Below the pieces are notes generated by a model, which saw nothing but the letters and a program-made list of their open reading frames with translations, did not search any database and had not been told where the DNA came from. The translations under genes and the position numbers were made by a program. Positions 796-17,406 of a DNA stretch of 56,447 nt are shown here, in pieces. How positions within the stretch are numbered: the first letter of the stretch is position 1; the number at the start of each line of letters is the position of its first letter. The stretch lies in contig JAJVHZ010000030.1 of the NCBI GenBank assembly GCA_022072255.1, forward strand, positions 23,048 to 79,494. The letters run 5' to 3'. The DNA is from Gammaproteobacteria bacterium (GTDB taxonomy: Bacteria > Pseudomonadota > Gammaproteobacteria > JAJPIJ01).

Positions 796-2001
796 CTAAA
801 GGTAATTGAACAGGCTGAGATTCTGCATCCTGGCGAACGCGGCCTGCGCCGCCTGCAGGGTGACGAGCCGCAGATTGAGGTTGCTGGCCGCCTCGATGAG
901 GTCCACGTCCTCGAGCGAGGAGCGCAGACCGGTCAGCTGCAGGGTCAGGTCCTCGTTGAAGGACTTCTGCGCCTCGATGATGTTCTGCCGCGCGCCGATG
1001 GCCGCGCGCACCTCGAGGAAGTTGTCCTGGCTGCGATCGATGTCGGCGATGGCCGAGTTGAGCGCGTTCTGCAACTGCGCATTTGCCGCCGGCGTCCCGG
1101 CCGGCGTTTCCAGCGCCGTGGCGATGCGGTCGAGCGTCTCGAAGACGGACTGGTAGCTGCTCGGCGAGACGTTGAACTCGTCGCCCGTGGCCGGTGCTCC
1201 GGTGATGATCAGCGTCTGGCCGTCGAAATCGATGCTGCTACCGCTGGTGTAGGTCTGGCCGCCGAGCACCACGGCGCCGCTGGTGTCGTCGAGCACGTCG
1301 TAGGTCGTGGCCGAGGTGAACACGATGCGGTAGTCGTGGGCAAGGAACGCGCTCGCGTCCGTGACGCTGCCGACGTTGACCACGCCGGTGCCGGTGTTGG
1401 CGGGATTGGCGCTGGTGGCGAACTGGCCGTTGCCGCTGCGCATCATCATGAAGACCTCCGACCCCGGGTCGCCGTCGGCGACGGTGTTCGTCGGACTGAT
1501 GTCCAGCATGCGTACGCCCTGGTCGCCGTTGTACTGCACCGAACCGGTCGCGCCGTCGATCGTGAACGGCTTGGTCTTGGCCTGGTACCCGGCGAACAGG
1601 TAATCGCCGTTGCCGTCGACGGTGTTGGCCAGACCCATCATCTGACCGAGCAACTGCCGGATCTCCACGGCGAGGAAGCCGCGCTCGCGGTCGCTGTACT
1701 GGCCGCTGCGGCCCTGAAGCGCGAGCTCGCGCGCGCGCACCATGATCTCCGAGGCGCTCGCGATCGCGCCCTCCTCCAGTTGCAGGCGCGAGGTCGCCAT
1801 GTCGGCGTTCTTCTGGTACTGGTCGGTCGTGGCCGTGGCGTTCTCGATCGACAGCACCTGCGCCGAGGCGGCCGGGTCGTCCGAGGGCGCGAGGATGCGC
1901 TTCTGGGTCGCGATCTGCTGCTGGATACGGGCGACCTCGGTCTGCTTGTTGAGTATGTTGGTGATGCCCTGTTGGTAGATCTGGCTGGTCGATATGCGCA
2001 T
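796..2001 (-). CDS. flgL: Flagellar hook-filament junction protein FlgL
   Basis: 401 aa. FlgL is the second hook-filament junction protein, exported through the flagellar type III apparatus and linking FlgK to the flagellin filament. The N-terminus MRISTSQIYQQGITNILNKQ and the C-terminal helix ending LQAAQAAFARMQNLSLFNYL are the two flagellin-like coiled-coil ends of the family; the middle (~130-280) is the variable exposed domain. It is longer than the E. coli protein (about 317 aa) but similar to Pseudomonas-type FlgL. It starts 5 nt after the flgK stop, so the two are co-translated at the distal end of the flg operon. Confidence 0.95.
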   Translation of the reverse strand: MRISTSQIYQQGITNILNKQTEVARIQQQIATQKRILAPSDDPAASAQVLSIENATATTDQYQKNADMATSRLQLEEGAIASASEIMVRARELALQGRSGQYSDRERGFLAVEIRQLLGQMMGLANTVDGNGDYLFAGYQAKTKPFTIDGATGSVQYNGDQGVRMLDISPTNTVADGDPGSEVFMMMRSGNGQFATSANPANTGTGVVNVGSVTDASAFLAHDYRIVFTSATTYDVLDDTSGAVVLGGQTYTSGSSIDFDGQTLIITGAPATGDEFNVSPSSYQSVFETLDRIATALETPAGTPAANAQLQNALNSAIADIDRSQDNFLEVRAAIGARQNIIEAQKSFNEDLTLQLTGLRSSLEDVDLIEAASNLNLRLVTLQAAQAAFARMQNLSLFNYL

Positions 2002-2006
2002 GACGG

Positions 2007-3893
2007 CTAGCCCCTGACCGCGTTCAGCAGTTCGTCGAACACCGTGTTGCCGGTGGCGATCACCTGGGCCGCCGCCTGGTAGGCCTGCTGGAACTTCAGG
2101 AGGTTGGCGGCCTCCTCGTCCAGGTTCACGCCGGAGAGCGCCTGCTGAGAACTAACGGCATTGTCGAGCAGGGTCTTGAGCGCCGTGCTGCTGACCTCGT
2201 GCTGGCGCGTGACGGTGCCGACATTGCCGACCATCGCGCCGTAGGCGTCGCCGTAGGTCGCGGTGCCGCCCTCGAGAACGCCGTTCTGTGCCAGCTCGGC
2301 CAGGGCGAGCAGGTTGCGGTTGTCGCCCACCCCGCCGGTGTTGGCCTCGATCACGACCTGATCGCCGGCCGCCGGCGTGCCGCTCAGCTGTATCCGCCAG
2401 CCGTTGATGTCGATGTTGGCGCCGGCGGTGTAGGCGATGCTGGCACCGGCGCCGTTGATGCGGTAGCTGGTCGGCGGATTGTCGAAGACCAGGGTGACCG
2501 TCGTGGTCAGGTTCGTGTCACTCGCGTCCAGGATCTCAGGCGCCGTCACGTTGACGTTGCCGAGGTTGCCCAGCGAGGCGCCGGCCCGCACCGGACTCGC
2601 CGCGGCGATCTCACGCACGTCGGTGATGGCGACCCCGATGTCGCGCGCGATGTAGCGCGTCGGCTGCAGCCGGTAGGTGTCGCCGGCCGCCGGCGCCGCG
2701 CCCACCGTTATCGTCAGCCCGTCGACGCTGAAGGGACCGGCGCCGCTCAGGGTCTGTGTCGTGCCGTCGGAGTACCGGTACAACTGCCAGTCGGTGCCGT
2801 CGAAGGTGAGGTCGTAATCCGAAATGGTCAGGTCACCGACATTGGCGTCATCGAAGGCGAGCGTGATCGTGCCGGTGTTGCCGCCCGCGGCATTGAACGA
2901 CGGCGACGGTACGGAGAAGAAATCCCCACCCATGGTCCCGTTCATGTCGACGCCTTCCTGGTGCTGCGTATTGAAGGTCATGGCCAACGCCGCGCTCAGG
3001 CGGCCGAGCGCATTGCGGGTCGGCTCGAGCAGGTCCTCGCGAAACGCGAGCGCGCCGCCCATCTGTCCCGAGCTCATCTGGCTGGACACCACCGAGGTCA
3101 CGCCGCCCACGACGTAACCGACCTCCAGGCGCGAGGCGTCCAGGGTGTTCGGCTGCGTCGTCAGCGTGGCGGTCGTCGAGCCCGTGACCAGCATCAGGCC
3201 GTCGCCGACCATGACGTTCATGGCGCCGTCGTCCTGGATGAAGGTGCTGACACCGGTGATCTCGGAGAGCTCGAGGACGAGCTGGTCGCGCCGGTCGAGG
3301 AGATCGTTGGCGGAATCCGAGCCGGTGCGCCCGTTGGCGAGCACGATGCTCTTGTTGAGATCGGCGATGGACGCGGCCAGTTCGTTGACCTGGCGCACCT
3401 GGTCGGCGAGCTTGGCGTTGATGGCGCTGTTGATGTCGTCCAGGCGCGCGATCTGGTCGTGCATCCGCGAGACCATGGTCCCGGCCGCCCCGAGCATGGC
3501 CTGCCGGGAAGGTATGGATGTCGGCTGGTCGGCCAATTGCTCGATGCTGCTGAAGAACCCCGTCATCGCGGTCGACAGGCCGGAGTTCGAGTCTGCCAGC
3601 ATGTTGTTCAACTGCGTGGCCAGGTCATAGAAGGAGCTGGCCTGCTGGTAGCTGGTCGAGCTCAGTTGCACCTGGCGGCCGAGGAAGGCGTCCGCGGCGC
3701 GGCTGACGTCGCCGATGCCGACACCCTTGCCGAAGTACACGTTGCCGCTGACCTGCGGGGCGCGCGCGGCGAGCTCCACGCGCTGACGCGAGTAGCCGGG
3801 CGTGTTGGCGTTGGAGATGTTGTGGCCAATGGTCGACAGCGCGCGTTGCGTCGACAGCAGCGCGGAAACGCCAATGTTCAGGATGTCAGCCAT
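2007..3893 (-). CDS. flgK: Flagellar hook-associated protein FlgK (HAP1)
   Basis: 628 aa. FlgK is the first junction protein added to the hook end. The N-terminus has the rod/hook family motif ALSTIGHNISNANTPGYSRQ and the C-terminus has the matching GVNLDEEAANLLKFQQAYQA helix, which pair in the D0 domain. The middle holds repeated Ig-like or beta-rich stretches (several TYRL/TYR-type repeats around residues 330-520), normal for FlgK. No export signal peptide, as expected for a type III substrate. It lies 51 nt downstream of flgJ. Confidence 0.96.
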   Translation of the reverse strand: MADILNIGVSALLSTQRALSTIGHNISNANTPGYSRQRVELAARAPQVSGNVYFGKGVGIGDVSRAADAFLGRQVQLSSTSYQQASSFYDLATQLNNMLADSNSGLSTAMTGFFSSIEQLADQPTSIPSRQAMLGAAGTMVSRMHDQIARLDDINSAINAKLADQVRQVNELAASIADLNKSIVLANGRTGSDSANDLLDRRDQLVLELSEITGVSTFIQDDGAMNVMVGDGLMLVTGSTTATLTTQPNTLDASRLEVGYVVGGVTSVVSSQMSSGQMGGALAFREDLLEPTRNALGRLSAALAMTFNTQHQEGVDMNGTMGGDFFSVPSPSFNAAGGNTGTITLAFDDANVGDLTISDYDLTFDGTDWQLYRYSDGTTQTLSGAGPFSVDGLTITVGAAPAAGDTYRLQPTRYIARDIGVAITDVREIAAASPVRAGASLGNLGNVNVTAPEILDASDTNLTTTVTLVFDNPPTSYRINGAGASIAYTAGANIDINGWRIQLSGTPAAGDQVVIEANTGGVGDNRNLLALAELAQNGVLEGGTATYGDAYGAMVGNVGTVTRQHEVSSTALKTLLDNAVSSQQALSGVNLDEEAANLLKFQQAYQAAAQVIATGNTVFDELLNAVRG

Positions 3894-3944
3894 GTGTGCT
3901 GCCTCGTCTCACTGCACCCGCCCTGCGGAACGCGTCCGTTGCGT

Positions 3945-4940
3945 TCAGCCGTTCTCCGTGCCGCCCGCTGCCCGCGCCTGGCGCAGGGTACGGATCTGGT
4001 TGTTCATGATGCTGAGCACCTTGTCCGCGTAGCGCGGGTCGGTGGCATAGCCGGCGCCCTGCAGGGCGCGGATGTAGGATTCCGGATCGCCCGCGTTCTC
4101 GAGCGCGCGCGAGTAGCGCGGCCGGCTCTGCAGGAAATCGATGTAGTCGTTGAAGCTGTGCGAATAGGATTCGTAGGCGCGGAACGGCGCCAGCTCGCGG
4201 CGCGCGACACCGTTCTCGTACTCGAGCGTGCTCACCCGCGTCCGCTCGCCGCTCCAGCTCGAGCCGGCCTTGATGCCGAAGAGATTGAAGCTGTTGCCGC
4301 CGGCGCGGTCGCGGATCATGTGCTTGCCCCAGCCGGTCTCGAGCGCCGCCTGCGCGAGCAGCAGGTCCGGATCCAGTCCCAGTTTCCTGCCCGCCGCCTC
4401 CGCGTGAGGCGCCAGCGCGCGCACGAACTCCTCGCGCGAGCCGAAGGTGCGCGGGTTGTACGCCGGGGTTTGGCCGGTCGCGTCGGCCGGCTCGGCGTCG
4501 TCCTCCGATGCGCCGACGGCGGCGGCGATGCGCTCGGAGGTCTCCAGCTGCCGCATCGTCTGCAGCGGCTCGCCGTGCATGCCCTGCCACCAGCGGGGTT
4601 CGAACCTGACGAGCGCCCCGGCATCCACCGTGCCCGTTTCCCTCGGCGCGATCTGCTGCAGCAGCATGTCGGCCAGGCCGAGGTCGCCGCGCCTGGCGAT
4701 GTCCGTGGATATCTGCTTGTCGAAGAGGTCCTGGTAGAGCTCGGTCTGCGAGCTGTCGAACAGCCCGCCGAAGTTGTTCGCCTCGCGCATACTCTGCAGC
4801 ATGGTCTGCACGAACAGGGCCTCGAACTGCTGGGCAACGGCGCGCGCGGCCTCGGGCGAGTTCCTGCGGGCCTGGGCGCGCAGACCGACGAGTGCGCCGA
4901 AGTCCGCACCCGCCAGCGCCTTCTCGAAGCCGTTCGCCAT
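3945..4940 (-). CDS. flgJ: Bifunctional flagellar rod-cap / peptidoglycan hydrolase FlgJ
   Basis: 331 aa. Two domains are visible. The rod-cap part is ~30-110, with AVAQQFEALFVQTMLQSMR. The glucosaminidase-type muramidase is ~175-320, with LLLAQAALETGWGKHMIRD, where the Glu of ALETGWG is the expected catalytic acid, and GNSFNLFGIKA. FlgJ caps the growing rod and cuts peptidoglycan so the rod can pass. This two-domain form is typical of gamma- and betaproteobacteria; alphaproteobacteria have the first domain only. The ATG overlaps the flgI stop by one base (TGATG), indicating translational coupling. Confidence 0.95.
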   Translation of the reverse strand: MANGFEKALAGADFGALVGLRAQARRNSPEAARAVAQQFEALFVQTMLQSMREANNFGGLFDSSQTELYQDLFDKQISTDIARRGDLGLADMLLQQIAPRETGTVDAGALVRFEPRWWQGMHGEPLQTMRQLETSERIAAAVGASEDDAEPADATGQTPAYNPRTFGSREEFVRALAPHAEAAGRKLGLDPDLLLAQAALETGWGKHMIRDRAGGNSFNLFGIKAGSSWSGERTRVSTLEYENGVARRELAPFRAYESYSHSFNDYIDFLQSRPRYSRALENAGDPESYIRALQGAGYATDPRYADKVLSIMNNQIRTLRQARAAGGTENG

Positions 4941-6034
4941 CAGATCACCACCAGCTCGGCCTTCAGCGCGCCGGCCTGCTTGAGCGCCTCGAGTATGGCG
5001 ACCAGGTCGCCCGGCGCAGCACCCACCGCGTTGACGGCCCGGACGATGTCGTCGAGCCTCACGCCCGGATTGAAGAGGAACATGCGGTTCTTCTCCTCCT
5101 TGACGTCGATGTTCTGCTTCGGAACCACGACTGTATCGCCGCGCGACAACGGCGGCGGCTGGCTCACGATGGGGTCGTTGGTGATCGTGACCGTCAGGCT
5201 GCCGTGCGTGACCGCGGCCGCGCTGACGGCGACGTGCTGACCGATGACGATGGTGCCGGTGCGCGAATTGACGACCACCTTGGCGGCCGCCTCGCCCGGG
5301 GAAAGCTCCAGGTTCTCGACCTGCGACATGAACGCCACCCGCTGCTGCGGGTCAACCGGCATGGCGACGGCCACGGATGACCCGTCGATCGGCTGGGCGC
5401 GCCCGCCGTTGGCGTTGATGGCCTCGGCCATGCGCGTGGCGGTGGTGAAATCCGGGAAATTGAGCGTCAGCAGCAGCTGGTCGCCCTGGTTGAAGGCGGT
5501 CATGACCTCGCGCTCCACGGTCGCTCCGTTGGCGATGCGTCCGCTGCTCGGCACGTTGATGCTGATCGAGGAGCCGTCGGTGGTCTCCACACCGAGTCCG
5601 CCGACGACCACGTTGCCCTGTGCGATCGCATATACGCCCCCGTCGGCGCCCTTCAGCGGCGTCATCACCAGGCTGCCGCCGCGCAGACTCTTGGCGTCGC
5701 CGAGCGAGGAGACGGTCACGTCGATGGTCTGGCCAGGCTTGGCGAACGGCGGCAGCGTCGCCTGCACGATGACGGCCGCGGCATTCTTCAGTGACGGCTT
5801 GACCTTCTGGGGCAGGGTGAGACCCAACTGCTTGACCATGTTCTTCGCGGTCTGCGCCGTGAACTCCGTCTTGTCGCCCGTACCGTCGAGACCGACGACC
5901 AGGCCGTAGCCCACGAGCTGATTGTCGCGCACGCCGGCAATGCGGGCGATGTCCTTGATGCGCTCGGCCTGCACCGCGGTGGCGCCCAGCGCCAGCATCG
6001 CACCGGCCACCAGTCCTGTCAGTACACGCTTCAT
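4940..6034 (-). CDS. flgI: Flagellar P-ring protein FlgI
   Basis: 364 aa. FlgI polymerises into the periplasmic P ring around the distal rod. A Sec signal peptide is evident ([23 protein letters not shown], cleavage after AQA), followed by [20 protein letters not shown] and [13 protein letters not shown], both highly typical of FlgI. Length matches the family. It is 28 nt downstream of flgH and its stop overlaps flgJ by one base. Confidence 0.97.
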
Positions 6035-6062
6035 ACGGATCGTTTCGCTCTTGTTCCGTCTA

Positions 6063-6812
6063 TCAGAGCGGCGACAGCGCGCTGGTGAAGAATCGCGTCA
6101 GCCAGCCTGCCTTGCTGGCACTGGCGGTCTGTCCGTCGCCGTTGTAGATGATGGTGGCGTCGGCGATCTTGGTCGACGGCACGGTATTGTCCAGGTCGAC
6201 GTCGATCGGGCGCACGATGCCGGAGAGCTTCACGTACTCGTTGCCCTGGTTGATACGCACGCGCTTCTCGCCGCGCACGACCAGGTTGCCGTTCGGCAGC
6301 ACGTCCGCCACCGTAACCGTGATGTCGCCGATCAACTTGCTCTCCTGCTCGTTGTCGCCCTTGCCGCTGAAATCGGAGGTGGCACCCATCGAGGTCTCGA
6401 GCGTGTTGTTGTCGGTGTCGGCCAGCGGCAGCGCGCCGGGCAGGCCGAACTGCGGGGTGGACCCGAGAATGGTGGGATTGGCGATGGTCGTCGAGCTCTC
6501 CTTGTCGAAGCTGCTGCTGGAGGAACTCTCCGCCGTGGTCTTCTCGACCAGCTTGACGGTCAGCGTGTCGCCGATGCGGCGCGCTTTCGCGTCCTCGAAC
6601 AGGTAGAGGGCGTAGCCGGGCTGGTAGATGGAGCCGCCGGAATGCTGCTCCGTTGGCACGCGCGCCGCCGGCATGGCGGCGGCGAACTCCGGGTCGCGCC
6701 GCGGAGCGCTGCCGGTGCATCCGCTCAAGGCGATGATGGCCACGGCGAGGAAGGTCCAGGCCGCCACCAGTGTGGCTTTGTCGTACATGCGCGAAATTTC
6801 CGGCGTGATCAT
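6063..6812 (-). CDS. flgH: Flagellar L-ring lipoprotein FlgH
   Basis: 249 aa from the ATG at 6812. FlgH forms the outer-membrane L ring. It has a hydrophobic signal and lipobox IIALSGC, then the conserved regions [30 protein letters not shown] and a beta-rich C-terminal half ending with [10 protein letters not shown]. The alternative ATG at 6788 (MYDKATLV...) gives a more typical 24-residue lipoprotein signal and may be the true start; neither has a strong Shine-Dalgarno. It is 15 nt downstream of flgG. The presence of FlgH and FlgI shows a diderm envelope. Confidence 0.94.
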
Positions 6813-6827
6813 GGTTTCAGCTGCCTA

Positions 6828-7613
6828 TCAGAGTGTCTGGGTGACGAAGCCCAGCATTTGGTCCACGGTGGAGATGGCCTTGGAGTTCATCTCGTAGGCG
6901 CGTTGCGTCTCGATCATGTTCACCAGTTCCTCCACCACATTGACGTTGGAGCTCTCGAGCGAACCCTGCACGAGCGTACCCATTCCATCGGTGCCCGGCG
7001 TTCCGGTCTGCGCCGTCCCGCTCGATACGGTCTCCTTGAAAAGGTTCTGGCCGACCGGCTGCAGGCCCAGCGGGTTGACGAAGTCGGCGAGCTCGATCGT
7101 GCCGATCTGCTGCGGCGTGGACTCACCGGCAACCAGAGCGCTCACGGTACCGTCGGATCCGACGGTCAGGCTCAGGGTGTCCTCCGGTATCGTGATGGCG
7201 GGCTCCACCAGGTAACCCTCGGACGTCACGAGTTGCCCCTCCGAATCCATCTCGAAGGAACCGTCGCGCGAATACGAGATGCTGCCGTCGGGCATCAGCA
7301 CCTGGAAAAAGCCACGGCCCTGGATGGCGACATCCAGCGGATTTTCGGTCTGCTCGATGCTGCCCTGTCCGAAATTCTTCTCCGTGGCGACGATGCGCAC
7401 GCCCGTGCCGAGCATGAGGCCGGAGGGAAGTTCCGAGTTCTGCGAGGAGGCCGCGCCCGGCTGCCGCACCGTCTGATACAGCAGATCCTCGAAGGAGGCG
7501 CGGTCGCGCTTGAAGCCGGTGGTGTTGACGTTGGCCAGGTTGTGCGCGATGACCTGCATGCGCGTGTTCTGAGCATCCAGTCCGGTCTTCGCGACCCAGA
7601 GTGCCGGTTCCAT
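6828..7613 (-). CDS. flgG: Flagellar distal rod protein FlgG
   Basis: 261 aa with start at [15 protein letters not shown] (ATG at 7613), the usual FlgG start and family length; an ATG 9 codons upstream would add an unlike basic extension. Family signatures are [20 protein letters not shown] near the N-terminus, and [20 protein letters not shown] with the C-terminal [11 protein letters not shown]. FlgG builds the distal rod that passes through the P and L rings. It is separated from the upstream flgF by 144 bp carrying the large palindrome at 7666-7733, the widest gap within the operon. Confidence 0.97.
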
Positions 7614-7665
7614 TCTGTTTCTCCGTCGGTGCCAGTGCACCGGTCAGGGGGGTGTGCCGTGATCC

Positions 7666-7733
7666 GTGAGTGGTGATCCGTGATTGGTGACTGGCCGGGC
7701 CGTGCCAATCACCAATCACGGATCACCACTCAC
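7666..7733. repeat. Perfect 25-bp inverted repeat with 7-bp internal period
   Basis: The left arm 7666-7690 and right arm 7709-7733 are exact reverse complements with an 18-nt spacer; after one mismatch a further TGGC/GCCA pairs in the loop. Each arm is made of heptads with the pattern GTGANNN (left, starting a little upstream at about 7659) or NNNTCAC (right), about five in each direction. The element sits between flgF and flgG and would form a very stable hairpin in the operon mRNA. It resembles REP/BIME-like intergenic repeats rather than a terminator (no U tract on either strand). Confidence 0.88.
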
Positions 7734-7757
7734 GACTCACCGTATACGTATCACTTT

Positions 7758-8498
7758 CTATGCCATCCGCAGCAGTTGCGACATGGCGGTGTCATTCTTC
7801 TCGGCGGTCTGCATCGCCTTGACCTGCAGCTCGAAGTTGCGCTGATAGGTCATCATGTTGATCATCTCGGAGACCGAGTTCACATTGCTGCTCTCCAGCG
7901 CACCCTGCACCACGCGCACCGAGGCATCGGCCTCGAGATTCGCGCCGTCTTTCCGCCGGAACAGTCCGTCCTCGCCCTTGTGCAGCTCCCGGATGTCCGG
8001 CCGAACGAGCTTCAGGCGATCGACCACCACCAGCGTGTCGGAGCCCTGGCCGACGGGGCGGATCGAGATCGTGCCGTCGGCGGCGATGAGGATGCTCTCC
8101 GCCGGCGGAATGGCCACCGGCCCGCCATTGCCGAGCACCGGCCGGCCGTTGCCGGTCTCCAGCATGCCATTGCCATTCAGCCGCAGGTCCCCCGCGCGCG
8201 TGTACGCCTCGGTGCCGTCGGCCGCCTGCACCGCGAGGAAGCCCTCGCCGTCGACCGCGACGTCGAGATCGTTGCCCGTCGTCTCGAGCGAGCCGGGCTG
8301 GTAGTTCACGGCCGGTCGCTCCGCCATCGCGTAAACGCGCGTGGGCTGCCCGGGGCCGAACACCGGCATGGCGCGGAACGCCTCGAGGTCGGCGCGGAAC
8401 CCGGGGCTGGCGGCGTTGGCAAGGTTGTTCGACGCGGCCGCCTGCTGCATCAGCATCTGCCGCGCCCCCGTCATTGCCAGGTAGACCATCCGATCCAT
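7758..8498 (-). CDS. flgF: Flagellar proximal rod protein FlgF
   Basis: 246 aa, the usual size. N-terminus MDRMVYLAMTGARQMLMQQA followed by SNNLANAASPGFRADLEAFR, and C-terminus SSNVNSVSEMINMMTYQRNF are the FlgF versions of the paired rod-protein helices. FlgF is a proximal rod subunit exported by the flagellar type III system. It lies 33 nt after flgE and 144 bp before flgG. Confidence 0.95.
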   Translation of the reverse strand: MDRMVYLAMTGARQMLMQQAAASNNLANAASPGFRADLEAFRAMPVFGPGQPTRVYAMAERPAVNYQPGSLETTGNDLDVAVDGEGFLAVQAADGTEAYTRAGDLRLNGNGMLETGNGRPVLGNGGPVAIPPAESILIAADGTISIRPVGQGSDTLVVVDRLKLVRPDIRELHKGEDGLFRRKDGANLEADASVRVVQGALESSNVNSVSEMINMMTYQRNFELQVKAMQTAEKNDTAMSQLLRMA

Positions 8499-8531
8499 GC
8501 GCTTTTCCCCGGGCGGCTAGCCGTTCAACGG

Positions 8532-9743
8532 TTAACGGATGTTGATGATCGACTGGGTGACCTGATCGGCGGTCTGGATGACCTGCGCGTTCGCCTGGAA
8601 GTTGCGCTGCGCGACGATCATCTTCACCAGCTCCTCGGAGAGATCGACGTTGGACTCCTCGAGCGCCCCGCCCTGGATGAGCCCCAGGTTCGATGAGCCC
8701 GGCGCGGAGACCAGCGGCGCGCCGGCCTCGAAGGTCTCGGCCCAGGCGGTATCGCCCACCGGCTGCAGACCCTGCGGGTTGGCGAAATTCGCCAGCGCCA
8801 CCTGGCCGAGCGTCACCGCCTGGCCGTTGGAGTAGCGCGCGAAGATGATGCCGCTCTTGTCGATGTCCAGGCCGCTCAGCGTGCCGGTGGTGTAGCCGTC
8901 CTGCACCATGCTGTTGACCGAGAACGGGCTGCCGTACTGGGTGCTGGTGCCGTAGTTCAGATCGAGCGTCATCGCCGCACCGCCGCCGCTCGGCGTGAAG
9001 GAGGCCGTCGTGAAGGCGCCGCCCGCCGGAGCGGTGAGCGCGCCGCTGCTGTTGAAGGTCAGCGCGGTCGGTCCGTCCACGGCGACGCCGTCGACGTAGG
9101 TATAGGTATCCCACGCATTGGCGCCGGACTTCACGTAGTACATCGAGGCGACGTGCGAATTCCCGAGCGAGTCGTAGACGGTCGTCGACGTCGCATTGTT
9201 GTAGCTGGACGTGTTGGTCGGATCGAACGTCGCCACCGCCGGCACGCTGGCGGAGGAATCCAGGTTCAACCCGACCGTTACGGCGGTCGACGCCGCCGGT
9301 GCGACGTTCGCGGTGTTGATCAGCAGATCGCCCAGCGCGCCGGTGATCGTGCCGCTGGTATCGGCCTGGAAGGCCTGCAGGCGCTGACTCTGCGCGTTCA
9401 CGACGTAGCCCTCGCGGTCCACGCCGAAGGCGCCGGCACGGGAGTAGAGATTCGAGCCGCCGTCGTTGACGACGAAGAAGCCGTTGCCGTTGATCGCCAG
9501 ATCGAGCGCATTCTCGGTGAACGACACCGTGCCCTGCGAAAACTGCTGGGCGATGCGCGAGACGTTCACGCCCGATCCCGGCGTGTCGCCGGCGACGCCG
9601 AGATTGCTGGCGGCGTAGATGTCTGCAAACTCCGCGCGCGACTTCTTGAAGCCGGTCGTGCTGGCGTTGGCCACGTTGTTACCGATGGTACTCAGGTCGG
9701 TCATCGAAGCGCGCAGACCGCTGATTGCTGTGCGAAACGGCAT
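8532..9743 (-). CDS. flgE: Flagellar hook protein FlgE
   Basis: 403 aa, close to the Salmonella size. FlgE polymerises into the flexible hook under the FlgD cap. N-terminus MPFRTAISGLRASMTDLSTI with GNNVANASTTGFKKSRAEFA, and C-terminus ESNVDLSEELVKMIVAQRNF with the ANAQVIQTADQVTQSIINIR end. Glycine-, serine- and threonine-rich exposed domains lie between. It lies 49 nt downstream of flgD. Confidence 0.97.
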   Translation of the reverse strand: MPFRTAISGLRASMTDLSTIGNNVANASTTGFKKSRAEFADIYAASNLGVAGDTPGSGVNVSRIAQQFSQGTVSFTENALDLAINGNGFFVVNDGGSNLYSRAGAFGVDREGYVVNAQSQRLQAFQADTSGTITGALGDLLINTANVAPAASTAVTVGLNLDSSASVPAVATFDPTNTSSYNNATSTTVYDSLGNSHVASMYYVKSGANAWDTYTYVDGVAVDGPTALTFNSSGALTAPAGGAFTTASFTPSGGGAAMTLDLNYGTSTQYGSPFSVNSMVQDGYTTGTLSGLDIDKSGIIFARYSNGQAVTLGQVALANFANPQGLQPVGDTAWAETFEAGAPLVSAPGSSNLGLIQGGALEESNVDLSEELVKMIVAQRNFQANAQVIQTADQVTQSIINIR

Positions 9744-9792
9744 GGTCGTTCTCTCCTGTCAGATCTCTTCGGAAAAGAGGCTTCCCCGATCC

Positions 9793-10479
9793 CTACTTGA
9801 TGGCCTTGACGCTGTCGATGCCGACTGCGCCGAGACCCGCCAGATTCAATCGCGAGGCCGCCCCGTTGGTGCCCAGCGAAACGCTCTCCACGCGCGCCTC
9901 CAGTTGCGTGGCCATGGCCACGGTCTGGCCGTTGTATTCCGCCTGCGCGGTGATGCGATAAGTACCGGCCGGTGCGGCGACGCCACCGCTGTCCATCCCC
10001 TCCCAGGTGAACTTCACCTCACCAGCCGGTTGTGCCCCCAGTGGAATCTCCTTCACGAGCTGTCCCGTGGAGTCGTAAACCTTGACGTTCAGCGAGCCGG
10101 TCTGCGCCGGCAGGTTGATGACGCCGGAAATCTTGTCGCCCGCGGCCTGCGTGGTCATCTTGCCGGCATCCACCAGCACGGTGCGGCCGACCATGGTCGA
10201 GGCCTGCAGTGCCTGGTTGGACTGCAGCGTGCTCGCCAGCGTCTCGAAGGACTTCTGCAGCTGGGTCACGGCGTTCAGCTGGCCGAACTGCGACAACTGG
10301 CTCAGGAACTGACCGCTCTCCATGGGCTTGTTCGGATCCTGGTTGTTCATCTGCGCGACCATCAGCTTCAGGAAGGTATCCTGGCTCAGCGTCTTGCTGG
10401 CCGCCTTGGTCGACTGCTGAATCGCGTACTGGTCCAGTACGCTGCCGCCGGAACCGACTGAGTTCGAATTGCTGGCCAT
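9793..10479 (-). CDS. flgD: Flagellar hook-assembly (hook cap) protein FlgD
   Basis: 228 aa. FlgD caps the growing hook and is replaced by FlgK. The conserved N-terminal segment LSQDTFLKLMVAQMNNQDPN followed by KPMESGQFLSQLSQFG is diagnostic. The C-terminal half (~110-200) has the FlgD Tudor/FnIII-like region with KVYDSTGQLVKEIPLG and a W-E-G-M-D-S-G-G stretch. It lies between flgC and flgE with ~49 nt gaps on both sides. Confidence 0.96.
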   Translation of the reverse strand: MASNSNSVGSGGSVLDQYAIQQSTKAASKTLSQDTFLKLMVAQMNNQDPNKPMESGQFLSQLSQFGQLNAVTQLQKSFETLASTLQSNQALQASTMVGRTVLVDAGKMTTQAAGDKISGVINLPAQTGSLNVKVYDSTGQLVKEIPLGAQPAGEVKFTWEGMDSGGVAAPAGTYRITAQAEYNGQTVAMATQLEARVESVSLGTNGAASRLNLAGLGAVGIDSVKAIK

Positions 10480-10528
10480 GTTTCCTGCTTCCTACCGTTT
10501 CGCGACCTGTTTCATTCCGGTTTGCCTA

Positions 10529-10951
10529 TCACATGCCCAACTGCAGCGTGCTCAGCACGAGCTGCTTGGAGGCGTTGGCGATCTCGATGTTCATCTGGTA
10601 GCTGCGCGAGGCCGACATCATGTTCGCCATCTCCTCGACCATGTTGACGTTCGGCATGTGGATGTAGCCGTTCTCGTCGGCCATCGGGTGCTCGGGCCGG
10701 TATATCGACCGCACCGGCGCCCGGCTCTCGATCACGCCCCGTACCTCCACACCGGCGCCGGCGCTATCGCCCTCGAAGCTCATGAGGTCGTCCATCATCG
10801 TCGCGAACACCGGGTGGCGCGCGCGGTAGGTGGTCGCGATGCTGCTGGAGACGCTGTCGGCGTTGGCCATGTTGCTGGCCGTCGTGTTCAACCGCAGCGA
10901 CTGCGCGCTGAGCGCGCTGCCTGCTATGTCCATCACCTTGAACAGGGACAC
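10529..10951 (-). CDS. flgC: Flagellar proximal rod protein FlgC
   Basis: 140 aa, family length. N-terminus MSLFKVMDIAGSALSAQSLR with LNTTASNMANADSVS, and C-terminus MPNVNMVEEMANMMSASRSY, define FlgC, a proximal rod subunit. It follows flgB with a 3-nt gap, so translation is almost certainly coupled. Confidence 0.96.
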   Translation of the reverse strand: MSLFKVMDIAGSALSAQSLRLNTTASNMANADSVSSSIATTYRARHPVFATMMDDLMSFEGDSAGAGVEVRGVIESRAPVRSIYRPEHPMADENGYIHMPNVNMVEEMANMMSASRSYQMNIEIANASKQLVLSTLQLGM

Positions 10952-10954
10952 GCG

Positions 10955-11347
10955 CTACTCTCCCCGTATCGCCGAGCGCAGCCCCTGGATGCGCTGGTTG
11001 AGGAACCGCAGGCTGGCCTGGTACTGCATGGCGTTCTTGACGAACTCGGCCTGCTCGATCTGGGTGTCCACGGTGTTGCCGTCGAGGCTGGGCTGGTCGG
11101 GCTCGCGGTAGAGCACCCCGGCGCCGAAGAAGCGGCTGTCGCCGAGGTCGAGGTGGCGGGCGTCGGTCTTGACCAGACCGGCGTCGGACTCGCCCAGCTG
11201 GCCGCGCATCAGCGCCGCGAAGTCGACGTCGCGCGCCTTGTAGTTCGGCGTGTCGGCGTTGGCGAGATTCGCCGCCAGGATTTCCGCGCGCCGGCTGCGT
11301 GCCACGAGGGCTGCGCCGTGTATGCCGAAGATGGAGTCCAGTGCCAT
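10955..11347 (-). CDS. flgB: Flagellar proximal rod protein FlgB
   Basis: 130 aa from ATG 11347, giving MALDSIFGIHGAALVARSRR, the usual FlgB start; a longer in-frame version begins at 11404 but would start inside the sigma-54 promoter and adds non-conserved residues. The motif RAEILAANLANADTPNYKAR is the rod-protein signature and the C-terminus has FVKNAMQYQASLRFLNQRIQ. FlgB is the first gene of the operon and a proximal rod component near the basal-body base. Confidence 0.95.
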   Translation of the reverse strand: MALDSIFGIHGAALVARSRRAEILAANLANADTPNYKARDVDFAALMRGQLGESDAGLVKTDARHLDLGDSRFFGAGVLYREPDQPSLDGNTVDTQIEQAEFVKNAMQYQASLRFLNQRIQGLRSAIRGE

Positions 11348-11386
11348 GTCTGTGAGTCTCTGCCGGGCTGTTTCCTGACAGGACCT

Positions 11387-11404
11387 AAGCAGCACCTGTG
11401 CCAA
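11387..11404 (-). promoter_or_regulatory. Sigma-54 (RpoN) promoter of the flgBCDEFGHIJKL operon
   Basis: On the minus strand the sequence is TTGGCACAGGTGCTGCTT. It has the GG and GC doublets exactly 10 nt apart and matches TGGCAC-N5-TTGCW closely (the first T of the -12 element is C). Transcription would begin ~12 nt past the GC, about 11378, leaving a ~30-nt leader before flgB. Polar flagellar rod-hook operons in Pseudomonas and Vibrio are RpoN-dependent class genes, so position and sequence agree. Confidence 0.85.
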
Positions 11405-11571: not shown

Positions 11572-13503
11572 CTAGTCGGTTCCGGTGTTGAGCAGGCGGT
11601 GGAATTCACGCGTCCACTCGCCGTCGTCGGGCCCGATGGTGGCCTCGGGGTCGGCGGCCGGCATGGCCAGCGTCACCGACCCCCCCGGGGGGAGGAGCTG
11701 ACCGGCGGGCAGCTCGCTCGCCGTGACGCCGAGGTCCTTCTGCCGTGCCTCCACCCAGGCCGAGGCCAGCTTCATGAACGAGCTGCGCTCCGTATCGATC
11801 TCCAGCACCGGCGCGAACTGCCGGAATCGATCGATACCGGCGGCGAGGACCGCCACCGCATGTGCCGGCGCCAGGGGAATGATCCCCTGTATCGGCGCCA
11901 GCAACGCGCGCAGCTCGCCGCTGTCCGGTTCCGGCACGCCGCCGCCCGCGGCGGCGCGGCAAAGGCCATTGGCGAATATCGTCAGGCACCGCAACGTCTC
12001 GGCGTGCGGCGCGTTGGGTGGCAGGATCTTCAGATCGCGATCCACCATGCTGAAGAGGATGATCTCGGGAAAAGCCCACTCCCGAGCGATCGCGTATCCG
12101 AGCTCGGTGTAGCGCACGCCCAGCACCGAGCGGGCCGCGGCATCCTCCTCGCCACCCTGCTCGATGAGCGCGGCGATGTCGCGAAAGTCGTCGGCGAAAT
12201 AGTACATGGTGACCGTACGGCCGAGGTCGTGCAGCAGGCCGCAGATGAACGCCTCCTCGACGTCCCTTATGCCGCAGCGCGAGGCCAGGTGGCGCGTCAG
12301 CAGGCCGGCGACGAAGGATCGGATGAGCGTCTCCTTCAGATCGCGGTCCCCGGCCTTGTCGGCGAAATGGCCGAAGCAGGCCAGGCCGTTGCAGGCCATG
12401 CGCACCTGATCCACGCCGAGTATGCGCACCGCGTCGGTGACGCTGCGGACGCGACCGGCGAAATTTCCGTAGAACGCCGAGTTGGCGAGCTTCAGCAGGC
12501 GGCTGGTCAGCGAGTAATCGCGCAGTATCACGTTGGCGAGCTGATCGGTGTTGGCGCGGCACTCGTCCCCCGTCAGGCGGTTGATCTCCTGCAGCGTGCG
12601 CGAGATGACCGGGAAATCACCCTTGCGCTGGATACGGCGCAGTATGAACTCGATCGTGCCGTGCAGCGGCGGATCCTGCTCGCCGCCCATGTAGCTGATG
12701 TGGCGCGAGGCCTGGGCCAGCGCCTTGCCCATGGCACCAGCATCGGGGTAACGCTGCGCCGGATCCTGCTGCAGCGCGAACTCCAGCACCGCGGTGACCA
12801 GGCCGGCGGGGTCGCGCTGACGCAGCAGGTCCCAGTTGATGCGGCCGCTGCGGATCTGCTCGACCATCCGCTTCTGATCGTTGCCCAGCACCACCGGCTT
12901 GCCCGTGATCAGTTCGTAGATTATGAGGCCCAGCGCGTAGACGTCGGTGCGCTTGTCCAGCTTGCGCGTGCTGGCGTGCTCCGGAGAGATATAGCGCAGC
13001 GTGCCGACGAGCTCGCCGCTGAACGGCGTGGAGGCGCTGCGCGAGAGGTCGAAATCCATGATCCGGGGCCGTCCTTCGCGGTCGCGCATGACGTTGGAAG
13101 GATTCAGGTCCATGTGCAGAATGCCGCGCGCGTGCGCGAACGACATGCCGTCGACGATCTGCCGGCCCACGCTCACCGCTTCGGGCAGCGGCAGCGCGCC
13201 GCGATCGCGGATCTCCTCGCGCAGCGTGCGGCCCTCGAGATACTCGGTGACCAGGTAGACGCGCTCGCCGGCGATGTCCGCATCGTAGAGCGCCACGATG
13301 TTGGGATGACGAAGCTGAGCGAGGAATTTTGCCTGCGGCGAGATGACCGGACGGGGCTGCTCGGGATCGGGGTGCAGCACCTTGACCGCGACACGCCGGC
13401 GCAGGTGCGGATCCTCGGCGAGGAACACCGCGCCGTGCAGCCCCTTGCCCAGCGGCTTGACCAGGACATACCGACCAATCTTGACGTTCTGTGCCGCTTG
13501 CAT
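11572..13503 (-). CDS. Atypical Ser/Thr protein kinase fused to an HDOD domain
   Basis: 643 aa from ATG 13503; a GTG at 13563 would add 20 residues. The kinase domain (~8-270) has GKGLHGAVFLAE and VAVKVLH (Lys41). The catalytic loop reads HMDLNPSNV instead of HRDLKPxN, the metal loop reads DFD instead of DFG, and the usual helix-C Glu position appears to be Pro. The second half (~285-500) is an HDOD domain: SLTSRLLKLANSAFYGNFAG and ICGLLHDLGRTV, with HD at ~424. HDOD proteins are regulatory and have no proven enzyme activity in most cases. It sits upstream of flgB on the same strand but beyond the sigma-54 promoter. A signalling role for motility is inferred from place only. The kinase may be weak or inactive. 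Confidence 0.88.
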   Translation of the reverse strand: MQAAQNVKIGRYVLVKPLGKGLHGAVFLAEDPHLRRRVAVKVLHPDPEQPRPVISPQAKFLAQLRHPNIVALYDADIAGERVYLVTEYLEGRTLREEIRDRGALPLPEAVSVGRQIVDGMSFAHARGILHMDLNPSNVMRDREGRPRIMDFDLSRSASTPFSGELVGTLRYISPEHASTRKLDKRTDVYALGLIIYELITGKPVVLGNDQKRMVEQIRSGRINWDLLRQRDPAGLVTAVLEFALQQDPAQRYPDAGAMGKALAQASRHISYMGGEQDPPLHGTIEFILRRIQRKGDFPVISRTLQEINRLTGDECRANTDQLANVILRDYSLTSRLLKLANSAFYGNFAGRVRSVTDAVRILGVDQVRMACNGLACFGHFADKAGDRDLKETLIRSFVAGLLTRHLASRCGIRDVEEAFICGLLHDLGRTVTMYYFADDFRDIAALIEQGGEEDAAARSVLGVRYTELGYAIAREWAFPEIILFSMVDRDLKILPPNAPHAETLRCLTIFANGLCRAAAGGGVPEPDSGELRALLAPIQGIIPLAPAHAVAVLAAGIDRFRQFAPVLEIDTERSSFMKLASAWVEARQKDLGVTASELPAGQLLPPGGSVTLAMPAADPEATIGPDDGEWTREFHRLLNTGTD

Positions 13504-13649
13504 TTCCCGTGTCAGTTGCTCGTGCGCATGTGAAAACCGAATCGGTGCGGGCGTGAGAACCACCGATCATCATCGCCGCGCGCTTCCCCGATCGGGTTAG
13601 CGACCGCGGACCGTGGAGGTTTAGCGGCAGGCCGCGGCCACGCCGGCGC

Positions 13650-14393
13650 TCAGCGCCGCCCGCGGCCACGCCCCAGACCCGCAAGCGCGACGAGCGAGGT
13701 GGCGAGCAGCCATATCGCCGGCGGCAACGGCACGGGCTGCGGCTGGAAGGTGAAGCGGGTGACCAGGCCAACGGTATCGGCGGCCCCCGCCGTCGCGCGG
13801 ACATCCCGGGCCACGACCCGCGAGAGACCGTCGGCGCGCGCGTTCACGGCATCCATCTGCGTGGTTGTCGTCGTGCCGTAACTGCGGATGTCGAGCAGCA
13901 GGTTGCCGCGCGCGGGATCGAACAGGAACGGATCGGTCAGCGCGAGCAGGATATCGAAGACCTTCGCGCCGCCCGCCAGCGCGGTGGCGGTGCTGGACAG
14001 GGTGATCGCGCCCTCGAACACGGTGTGCCGGTCGGGACCGATGTTCTCAGCGAACGTCGGGGAGAGATTGTCGGCGCCGAGCAGCGTCGTCGACAGATCG
14101 ATGCGCAGATCGAGCGTCGCCGCGGCAAATCCGCTGCCATGGGCGCCGTCGGCGCGAAAGGCGATCGTGGTGAGATACTGCGGCCCGGGAAGCGCGGCGA
14201 TCTCACCGGCCTCGTAGACCTGCTGCAGCCGCATCGAGCCGCCGCCGAACAGACTCGTATTGAAAGGGAAACCCGAATTGTAGTTCCCGTCGGTCCCGGC
14301 ACTCGCGCCCGCGACCAGAACCGTGGCCGCGTGCACGGCGGCGCCGTGGCCAAGCGCGAGGCACAGCAGGATCGCAGGGGCGATCCGGTTCAT
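13650..14393 (-). CDS. Exported protein with VPLP-type PEP-CTERM sorting signal
   Basis: 247 aa from ATG 14393, chosen because it starts the signal peptide MNRIAPAILLCLALGHGAAVHA; the frame also allows a start at 14447. The C-terminus has the tripartite sorting signal VPLPPAIWLLATSLVALAGL followed by an Arg-rich tail RGRGRR, the gammaproteobacterial VPLPA variant processed by an exosortase. The body is threonine/alanine-rich, predicted beta, with no recognised catalytic motif. Such proteins are linked to exopolysaccharide and biofilm surfaces. No exosortase is present in this window. It lies between two kinase/cyclophilin genes on the same strand. Confidence 0.82.
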   Translation of the reverse strand: MNRIAPAILLCLALGHGAAVHAATVLVAGASAGTDGNYNSGFPFNTSLFGGGSMRLQQVYEAGEIAALPGPQYLTTIAFRADGAHGSGFAAATLDLRIDLSTTLLGADNLSPTFAENIGPDRHTVFEGAITLSSTATALAGGAKVFDILLALTDPFLFDPARGNLLLDIRSYGTTTTTQMDAVNARADGLSRVVARDVRATAGAADTVGLVTRFTFQPQPVPLPPAIWLLATSLVALAGLGRGRGRR

Positions 14394-14467
14394 CGCAAAG
14401 TGACTCGGCCCCGGCACTGTCTCTCCCCCTTCGTGCGGCGATGCCACGGGCGTCGCCGGATGGCGGA

Positions 14468-15759: not shown

Positions 15760-17124
15760 CTACCACGGTCTCCTCCCCGGCGCCGCCGGCGCGGCGTCGC
15801 CTGCCGGCGCTGTGCCTTCCCGGCTGCGCGGGACCGCACCCTCGCCCTTGAGCCGCGCATCACCCCACTTCGACTTGACGTACACCAGCACCTCGCGCGC
15901 GCTCTGGAAACGCTCGCCCGGGACCTTCGCAAGCAGCCGATCGAGCAGTTCCTGCATGGCGGACAGGGACGGTGGCAGCCGCGGCGGCGGTTCGGTCGCA
16001 TGCATGTGGATGATCATCATCAGCGACTTCGCGGTGAACACGCGCCTGGCGGTGAGCATCTCGTAGAAGATGGCCCCCAGGCTGTAGAGATCGCTGCGGG
16101 CATCCACCGCCCTGCCGCTGCCCTGCTCCGGGCTCATGTACAGCGGAGTGCCCACCAGCTCGCCGGACTGCGTGAACTCCGTGGCGATGGAGTCCATCTG
16201 CGAGACGCCGAAGTCCACCAGCGCCAGCGAGCGATCGGCGCGAAACATGATGTTGGGCGGCTTCAGATCGCGGTGCACGATGCCGTGCTGATGTATCGAA
16301 TCCAGGGCCATGCCCATCGCCCACAGCAGAGACAGCGCCCGGTTCGGCGCGAACGGCCGACCGAGCTGCTGCTTGAGATCGCCGCCCGGGAAATGCTCCA
16401 TGGCGATGAACACGTGGTCGTCCGTGAATCCCTGGTCGAAGATCTTCACGACCCAGGGGCTGTCGACCTGGGCCACGATGCGGTACTCGTGCATGAAGCG
16501 CTGCAACTGCACGGGGTCCTGCATCATCGATCCGTCGAGGATCTTGAGTACGAGCTCCTGGCCGTCCGCCTCGCGCTCGGCGATGAATACGCGCGACATC
16601 CCGCCTTCGCCGATCTTTCTCATCAGCCGGTAGCCGCGGATGCGGATGGGCTTGCCGTTCATGCAGAAATCGACAGCATCGGGCGCCGGTTCGCCGTCGC
16701 CGGTGAAGACCAGCCGATCGGTCACGTCCTCGCTGCGCACCATGACCGGCGTGGTGCGCTCCGCGAGGAGTCGGTTCAACACCTCGCTCAGGGTGGCGCG
16801 TGAGAGTGACTGCACCGGCAGGAAGACGCAGATCCCGCCCTGGAGCACCGGCCGCACGACCGGTTCGTGCACCGCCTCGCCGATGCACAACAGCGGCCTG
16901 CCGGAGAACCGCACCGCCAGCTCGTTGGCAGCGGCCCGCAGAGTGTTGGCGTCATCGTGGCCGACGATGACGAAATCCGGCGGATCCGCCAGCTCGCGCG
17001 CCGCGACGGCCTCCCATTCGGCGAGCGCGCAGTCGACCACCTGGACGTCCGGCCAGAGGATGGCGAGGTACTGGCTGAGGAGCAGCCGGAAGTCCTCGGA
17101 TTGATGTATGAGGAACGCCTGCAT
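15760..17124 (-). CDS. Ser/Thr protein kinase with N-terminal receiver-like domain
   Basis: 454 aa from ATG 17124, preceded by GAGAGAAG; a longer frame to 17205 lacks conservation. Residues 1-120 look like a receiver fold (MQAFLIHQSEDFRLLLSQYL, PDFVIVGHDD, RPLLCIG) but the acidic pocket and KP motif are not clear, so it may be a pseudo-receiver. The kinase domain (~155-420) is canonical: KIGEGGMSRVF, LVLKIL, HRDLKPPNIMF, LVDFGVSQ, GTPLYMSPEQ. The C-terminus is a basic Ala/Pro tail with no transmembrane segment, so it is cytoplasmic. It is divergent from pilG across a 282-bp gap, which suggests, without proof, control of pilus or surface behaviour. Confidence 0.9.
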   Translation of the reverse strand: MQAFLIHQSEDFRLLLSQYLAILWPDVQVVDCALAEWEAVAARELADPPDFVIVGHDDANTLRAAANELAVRFSGRPLLCIGEAVHEPVVRPVLQGGICVFLPVQSLSRATLSEVLNRLLAERTTPVMVRSEDVTDRLVFTGDGEPAPDAVDFCMNGKPIRIRGYRLMRKIGEGGMSRVFIAEREADGQELVLKILDGSMMQDPVQLQRFMHEYRIVAQVDSPWVVKIFDQGFTDDHVFIAMEHFPGGDLKQQLGRPFAPNRALSLLWAMGMALDSIHQHGIVHRDLKPPNIMFRADRSLALVDFGVSQMDSIATEFTQSGELVGTPLYMSPEQGSGRAVDARSDLYSLGAIFYEMLTARRVFTAKSLMMIIHMHATEPPPRLPPSLSAMQELLDRLLAKVPGERFQSAREVLVYVKSKWGDARLKGEGAVPRSREGTAPAGDAAPAAPGRRPW

Positions 17125-17406
17125 TCTTCTCTCGGTGTGGTTCCGGGTCGGCACGCCCTCGCTCGCACCATCGCGAACGCATATCGGCCATCTTCGGAAA
17201 TCCATTAGTTGCGCGCCGCGGCAACTGAAGCCTTCAACTCCCAGGGCCCGCGGCTCGCCGCGCCCTAAAGTCGTGTACGGTCTGGCCGCTATTCCTCGTG
17301 TGCGTAAACCCGGCGGGGGTCGTCGAGAGCGCTTTCGCGGGCGTGCAACGGGATTTCGGGTAGGCGTTCACCAATAACAACACGTCATGGGGACGAGGCC
17401 GGATCA

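Follow-up and report, generated by a model that had tools for sequence, protein, structure and literature searches.

The gene upstream of the flgB-flgL operon in a gammaproteobacterial genome encodes a fusion of a Hanks-type kinase with an HDOD domain, which we read, with a probability of about 60%, as a late flagellar regulator of the FliA class. This reading is drawn from sequence comparison. The kinase-HDOD family was almost confined to flagellated bacteria and often carried a late-flagellar-type promoter, and for these two reasons we regard it as a probable, so far unrecognised component of flagellar control. Of the two halves of the reading, the assignment to flagella has the better support; kinase activity, the target of HDOD and whether its effect is positive or negative are what we infer.

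Domain layout and flagellar surroundings

In the window (the whole stretch of 56,447 nucleotides analysed), the kinase-HDOD protein P0002 has 643 aa and is encoded at 11572-13503 of the minus strand, with an ATG start at 13503 and a possible in-frame GTG at 13563. The fusion and its coordinates had been given correctly in the original prediction, as the Pfam matches and the list of open reading frames showed. Pfam placed a Pkinase match at residues 12-220 (3.7e-42; 12844-13470, minus strand) and an HDOD match at residues 298-484 (2e-39; 12052-12612, minus strand). The HDOD profile PF08668 scored 135.6 bits against a gathering cut-off of 22.9, which assigns the protein to the HDOD family. The AF2 model had a mean pLDDT of 81 and a pTM of 0.53, so the mutual placement of the two domains is unreliable. 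A kinase fold was found by Pfam, in this model and by the match to PknB (5u94, Z 32.6, rmsd 2.1, 251 residues aligned), and the fold match extended to about residue 267. Among solved proteins, PknB-type kinases were closest to the kinase domain both by sequence and by fold, and the NCBIfam profile PknB_PASTA_kin scored 201, far under its cut-off of 450. The structure-search matches of the model were to the kinase domain and the HDOD domain was assigned by sequence, with 3hc1 as its nearest solved relative (E 5.6e-18) and 3m1t and others also matching.

The adjoining gene upstream (13650-14447, minus strand) encodes a secreted-looking protein that gave no match in Pfam or NCBIfam. It ends in VPLPPAIWLLATSLVALAGLGRGRGRR, which we take to resemble a VPLPA/PEP-CTERM sorting tail.

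On the same strand, downstream of the kinase-HDOD gene, lie flgB (listed at 10955-11404, minus strand) and flgC-flgD-flgE-flgF-flgG-flgH-flgI-flgJ-flgK-flgL (796-10951, minus strand). Here flgI was identified by NCBIfam, and the other names are presumed from the sequences and the E. coli K-12 gene order. A sigma-54-type site, TTGGCAC-N6-TGC, precedes flgB at 11389-11404 (minus strand) and is conserved in the congener, G001. It was the only match without mismatch in the window, and the pattern with one mismatch was not rare (5 found, 4.5 expected). The listed TTG start of flgB at 11404 overlaps this site, and an ATG near 11347 is the likely start. The kinase-HDOD gene ends 167 nt before the first listed flgB start. 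Given this gap and the sigma-54-type site that flgB has of its own, the sequence indicates that the flagellar operon does not simply begin with the kinase-HDOD gene. Co-transcription with flgB was likewise rejected as the sole reason for the flagellar link, since the site before flgB is conserved. Between 11300 and 13700 no sigma-70 match was found, nor a terminator match in a scan that misses terminators without a T run.

The original prediction had also placed the gene where flgA or flgM is found in pseudomonads and had proposed a genome search for both. The position upstream of the flagellar operon stands. The search located flgA and flgM elsewhere (G000:C11 in the genome of the window, G001:C21 in the congener), and a functional replacement of either by the kinase-HDOD gene was rejected, since both are present.

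The flanks of 60 kinase-HDOD loci were queried with the flagellar proteins of the window and of E. coli. Flagellar structural genes were found at three of them (G001, G470 and G482), the window itself not counted, and at neither of 2 further loci. In G470 flgA, flgM, flgN and the kinase-HDOD gene follow one another in this order on one strand, and flgB-J run divergently from them. In G482 a gap of 40 nt separates the end of the kinase-HDOD gene from fliK; fliEFGHIJ lie upstream, with a histidine kinase gene on the opposite strand between fliJ and the kinase-HDOD gene, and the downstream matches were fliM, fliN, fliP, fliR, flhB and flhA, as in a fliKMNOPQR-flhBA cluster. In G662, the nearest distant relative with the motifs of P0002, the flg operon is on a different contig. 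Adjoining flgAMN-kinaseHDOD in G470 (L255, 3358-8653) are genes for a stand-alone HDOD protein, a PAS-GGDEF-EAL protein and a sigma-54 activator, and these surroundings are possibly a c-di-GMP/flagellar regulation island.

Late-flagellar-type promoters and co-occurrence with flagella

The consensus of FliA (sigma-28) promoters is TAAA-N15-GCCGATAA. Upstream of the kinase-HDOD gene, a pattern match revealed a sigma-28-type promoter, TAAA-N15-GTCGCTAA, at 13597-13623 of the minus strand. The site is conserved in the congener as TAAA-N15-GCCGCTAA. It was the sole match without mismatch in the window, and 2 matches were found with up to one mismatch compared to 0.05 expected. The gene thus has the type of promoter that marks the FliA regulon, as judged by this consensus, against which the P0002 site scores just 10/12. 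The other match in the window, with 1 mismatch, lies at 17266-17292 (plus strand), about 115 nt before a pilG-like gene that opens a pilGHIJ-chpA cluster.

A genome-wide pattern that fits both sites gave 7 matches in the genome of the window and 8 in that of the congener, compared to 6 and 1 for the reversed control. Six pairs were conserved between the two genomes by their downstream gene, namely kinase-HDOD, a CheV-like CheW-REC gene, Cache-HAMP, GGDEF, MlaA and GlmM, the last assigned from its sequence. These pairs include cheV and a chemoreceptor-like gene (Cache-HAMP), and two of the six, MlaA and GlmM, look non-flagellar.

Across the family, this type of promoter was enriched. After near-duplicate upstream regions were removed, 88 of 89 regions were left. 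The FliA consensus was matched at 10/12 or better in 33 of these and at 11/12 or better in 12, while Markov shuffles gave means of 1.7 regions (largest 5) and 0.05, respectively. Kinase-only genes reached 10/12 in 2 of 116 cases and 11/12 in none (p 3.8e-12 against the family), and those of the class sample reached 10/12 in none of 33. The opposite strand and the reversed pattern, used as controls on the family regions, each gave 3/89. The spacer was 15 in 25 of the 33 sites, and one site, that of L190, was perfect. Proteins with an aligned length below 690 had a site in 21 of 38 cases and longer ones in 12 of 50. The remaining 55 of the 88 kinase-HDOD genes had no site at 10/12.

The distribution of the family was then compared with that of flagella. 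In the class, a carrier was defined as a genome with a full-length fusion at a best E below about 1e-140, and flagella were scored with the FlgG profile TIGR02488 at E<=0.001. In the class sample, 27 of 369 genomes were carriers and 200 had FlgG. FlgG was present in all 27 carriers (26 over the cut-off), compared to 173 of the 342 others (p 3.6e-8, kinship uncorrected) and 73 of 122 kinase-only genomes (p 6.8e-6, kinship uncorrected). One genome with a truncated fusion (G357) was counted as a non-carrier among the 342 and was excluded from the kinase-only control and from the size-stratified test. The latter, made on the 150 genomes with matches minus G357, still gave p 1.1e-4 with genome size as its sole control. 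In the order of G169, FlgG was found in 21 of 23 carriers (20 over the cut-off) versus 119 of 273 genomes (p 9.9e-6, kinship likewise uncorrected); the two carriers without it, G510 and G593, are draft genomes. Among the 4 genomes of P0002's own order, the 2 with FlgG carry the kinase-HDOD gene and the 2 without it do not. FlgG and FlgM were also found in the host genome. The promoter, co-occurrence and neighbourhood data together back the flagellar role at which the original prediction had hinted.

The alternative that P0002 is a kinase-HDOD signalling protein of general purpose, without any particular flagellar role, and that its gene stands before flgB by chance appears improbable on these data. 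In its favour, most relatives lie away from flagellar genes, flgB has its own promoter-like site and the host genome encodes many other Hanks kinases (22 matches in one search, HDOD-only ones included). But the promoter enrichment and the co-occurrence with FlgG persist after the controls, and two further lineages place a kinase-HDOD gene inside flagellar operons.

Two observations concern the other Hanks kinases of this genome. One contig of 24.5 kb (G000:C51) has at least 5 Hanks-kinase matches between 2.4 and 21.9 kb. In the window, a second Hanks kinase gene with canonical HRDLK and DFG lies at 15760-17205 (minus strand) beside the pil-chp cluster; the N-terminal 190 residues of its product look like a degenerate receiver and gave no Pfam match.

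The altered active site and its conservation

The kinase domain of P0002 differs from the canonical sequence at four positions, all read from the sequence and the alignments and all as originally predicted. The helix-C Glu is replaced by Gln57 (13333-13335, minus strand). In the catalytic loop H130-M-D-L-N-P-S-N137 (13093-13116, minus strand; canonical HRDxKxxN), Met131 replaces the HRD Arg and Asn134 the catalytic Lys. D150-F151-D152 (13048-13056, minus strand) stands where DFG is canonical, with Asp152 for the Gly. There is also no Arg or Lys at D+2 (Asn134) or D+4 (Ser136). The Gly-rich loop GKGLHG, VAVK with the beta-3 Lys41, the HRD Asp132, the D+5 Asn137 and the DFG Asp150 are retained; the first reading of the sequence had noted that this loop, the VAVK Lys and the catalytic Asp were kept. 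An alignment error was rejected as the source of the odd motifs, since the flanking columns align with relatives bearing E, HRD and DFG.

Full-length kinase-HDOD proteins were collected from one scan of genome contigs and from searches of relatives, of the class and of two other orders. The profile match had to start before 30 and end after 480, and proteins that were near-duplicates over their last 400 aa were thinned. The alignment of 87 rows omits a partial row and also L259, whose gene is that of L037. The tree, with 66 rows, was built by a quick method with the motif columns left out and with 2 tandem pseudokinase copies excluded; it is unrooted and has SH-aLRT support only.

In this tree P0002, its ortholog in the congener and L037 grouped together with a support of 99, and the group nested in a clade of 32 rows (support 96) of proteins of about 600 residues without GAF. 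The HRD Arg column held Leu, Met or Phe in 32 of 32 rows of this clade, although the column had been excluded from the tree. A short set of 35 rows was chosen by that residue and by a short tail, and its 35/35 for Leu, Met or Phe is therefore by construction. The equivalents of Lys41, Asp132, Asn137 and Asp150 were kept in all 35 short rows. The D+2 residue was Ser in 26, Asn in 6 and Lys in 1 of them, and Arg stood at D+4 in 22. The remaining 52 rows mostly had HRD (36), Lys at D+2 (34) and DFG. P0002 has the HD dyad, but just 3 of the 35 short rows and 2 of the 52 others do, which does not fit a metal-dependent HD phosphohydrolase.

Among the 35 short rows, helix-C Gln and DFD occurred in exactly the same 4 (P0002, L031, L037 and L260), and Gln57, Asn134 and Asp152 are common to all 4 members of P0002's branch. 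The loss of the HRD Arg and of the catalytic Lys is thus probably older, and the change at helix C and DFD a later step of P0002's branch; this order takes canonical kinases as ancestral, as the tree is unrooted. In 184 non-redundant kinases that keep K/D/D, helix C lacked Glu in 3 (P0002, its ortholog and L037), and only these 3 had DFD, with L260 as a fourth case outside that set. For a statistical rule coupling helix-C loss to DxD, the 3 give no independent support, because they are a single lineage.

The original prediction had left room for the odd motifs being confined to this strain, and its phylogenetic check decided the matter: the congener and two distant genomes share them (G001, L037 and L260, at 93, 44 and 43% identity to P0002), and canonical HRD and DFG appear only in more distant relatives. 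Between the genome of the window and the congener, the kinase part had 96.2% identity with dN 0.017 and dS 0.217 (dN/dS about 0.08), the HDOD part 94.1% with dN 0.027 and dS 0.183, and the C-terminal part 86.1%, so that the kinase part was the most conserved. The gene is under purifying selection. The idea that an ordinary kinase-HDOD gene is decaying in this one strain, to which a paralog with HRD and DFG in the same genome (G000:C21) might point, has next to no likelihood left against these shared changes and this constraint and was ruled out.

In the excerpts of PMC12599244, a pseudokinase is defined by the loss of the beta-3 Lys, the HRD Asp or the DFG Asp. P0002 has Lys41, Asp132 and Asp150, and by this published definition its sequence does not earn the label; catalysis is predicted. 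The same excerpts describe DYD kinases, which are membrane-associated proteins of actinobacteria and firmicutes. In AlphaFold3 models of these, the beta-3 basic residue is paired not with a helix-C Glu but with the second Asp of DYD, and the catalytic-loop Asn contacts the gamma-phosphate (PMC12599244, excerpts). P0002 similarly lacks the helix-C Glu (Gln57) and has a DxD (D150-F-D152) and a catalytic-loop Asn (Asn134), but it retains the beta-3 Lys41, unlike the DYD kinases as excerpted, which have a beta-3 Arg. The likeness is likely convergent, because the tree places P0002 inside the kinase-HDOD family. By analogy, Asp152 might pair with Lys41 and Asn134 might contact phosphate. Compared with its closest solved relatives, the PknB/Stk1-type Hanks kinases, P0002 has the helix-C Glu, the HRD Arg, the catalytic-loop Lys and the DFG Gly replaced and an HDOD domain for PASTA.

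With these four residues absent, the domain may be inactive. P0002 would then be a flagellar regulator with a kinase domain that senses nucleotide without catalysis, holding ATP via the Gly-loop, Lys41, Asn137 and Asp150 and gating HDOD by conformation only. We consider this sensor unlikely, though far from negligible. It is favoured by the four altered canonical positions, by the lack of Arg or Lys at D+2 and D+4 where 22 of 35 short rows have Arg at D+4, and by the existence of clear pseudokinase-HDOD relatives, namely the tandem copies of L047 and L049, which lack Lys and DFG, and L142, in which the catalytic Asp is missing. Against it, Lys41, Asp132 and Asp150 are kept throughout the short rows, the kinase part is more constrained than the HDOD part, and P0002 falls outside the pseudokinase definition as excerpted from PMC12599244. 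The preferred reading is a flagellar regulator with a putatively active kinase.

Proposed mode of action and relation to HDOD motility regulators

We propose that proteins of the kinase-HDOD and kinase-HDOD-GAF family would be made late, via FliA, once the hook-basal body is complete. The PknB-like N-terminal domain would bind Mg-ATP and act as an unusual non-RD kinase. In P0002's branch, the second Asp of DFD may pair with Lys41 and compensate for the lost helix-C Glu, and Asn134 may contact the phosphate where the catalytic-loop Lys has been lost, in line with the models of DYD kinases, to which P0002 is unrelated. HDOD, as a non-enzymatic output module, would respond to whether the kinase is phosphorylated or which nucleotide it holds, and its output would tune flagellar gene expression or swimming, as GsmR, SadB and PSPTO_4229 do. 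A fuller version, which we hold tentatively and with the odds somewhat against it, is that the family is a conserved FliA-class checkpoint across the flagellated members of P0002's class, in which a Hanks kinase made after hook completion reports the ATP or assembly state to HDOD. In P0002's branch, three linked replacements (Gln for the helix-C Glu, DFD for DFG and Asn for the catalytic Lys) would have rebuilt the active site, convergently with DYD, inside an otherwise more canonical family.

Changes in swimming due to HDOD proteins were reported for Pseudomonas, Xanthomonas and Campylobacter (PMC11813219 and PMC11004494, excerpts). According to the excerpts of PMC6543031, they affect motility in several bacteria by a mechanism that is not established, SadB was reported to bind c-di-GMP, and HDOD is described without catalytic activity. 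P0002 shares the HDOD output domain with GsmR (Xanthomonas), SadB (Pseudomonas), PSPTO_4229 and Cj0248, which influence swimming or the expression of flagellar genes (PMC11004494, PMC11813219 and PMC6543031, excerpts). Unlike P0002, GsmR is described as a response regulator, SadB has a YbaK-like domain and PSPTO_4229 is described with HDOD only, and none of the four is described with a kinase domain in these excerpts; the comparison was by HDOD profile and description only. The listings from searches of the open-licence literature showed neither a kinase-HDOD fusion nor FliA control of one. The family, widespread and tied to flagella by its promoter type and genome distribution, offers a tractable entry to the HDOD-motility question, with a single gene to delete, a sigma factor that can be predicted and a putative ATP-binding domain in the protein itself. 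Moreover, P0002's branch is a natural test of whether DxD can replace the helix-C Glu with the beta-3 Lys kept, which bears on calling bacterial pseudokinases from sequence.

The kinase-HDOD-GAF paralog of the same genome (G000:C21) and its relatives have the same kinase-HDOD arrangement as P0002, and the G000:C21 gene is also preceded by a sigma-28-type site (10/12). Unlike P0002, they have a C-terminal GAF domain, keep HRD and DFG and lack the HD dyad. A kinase-HDOD-GAF gene of G225 (L142:991-3390, minus strand) has HGAL for HRDL and GLG for DFG and has lost the catalytic Asp separately. The pseudokinase-HDOD genes at L047:6100-8004 (plus strand) and L049:6063-7985 (plus strand), which lack the beta-3 Lys and DFG, directly precede a canonical kinase-HDOD gene and form natural kinase/pseudokinase tandem pairs.
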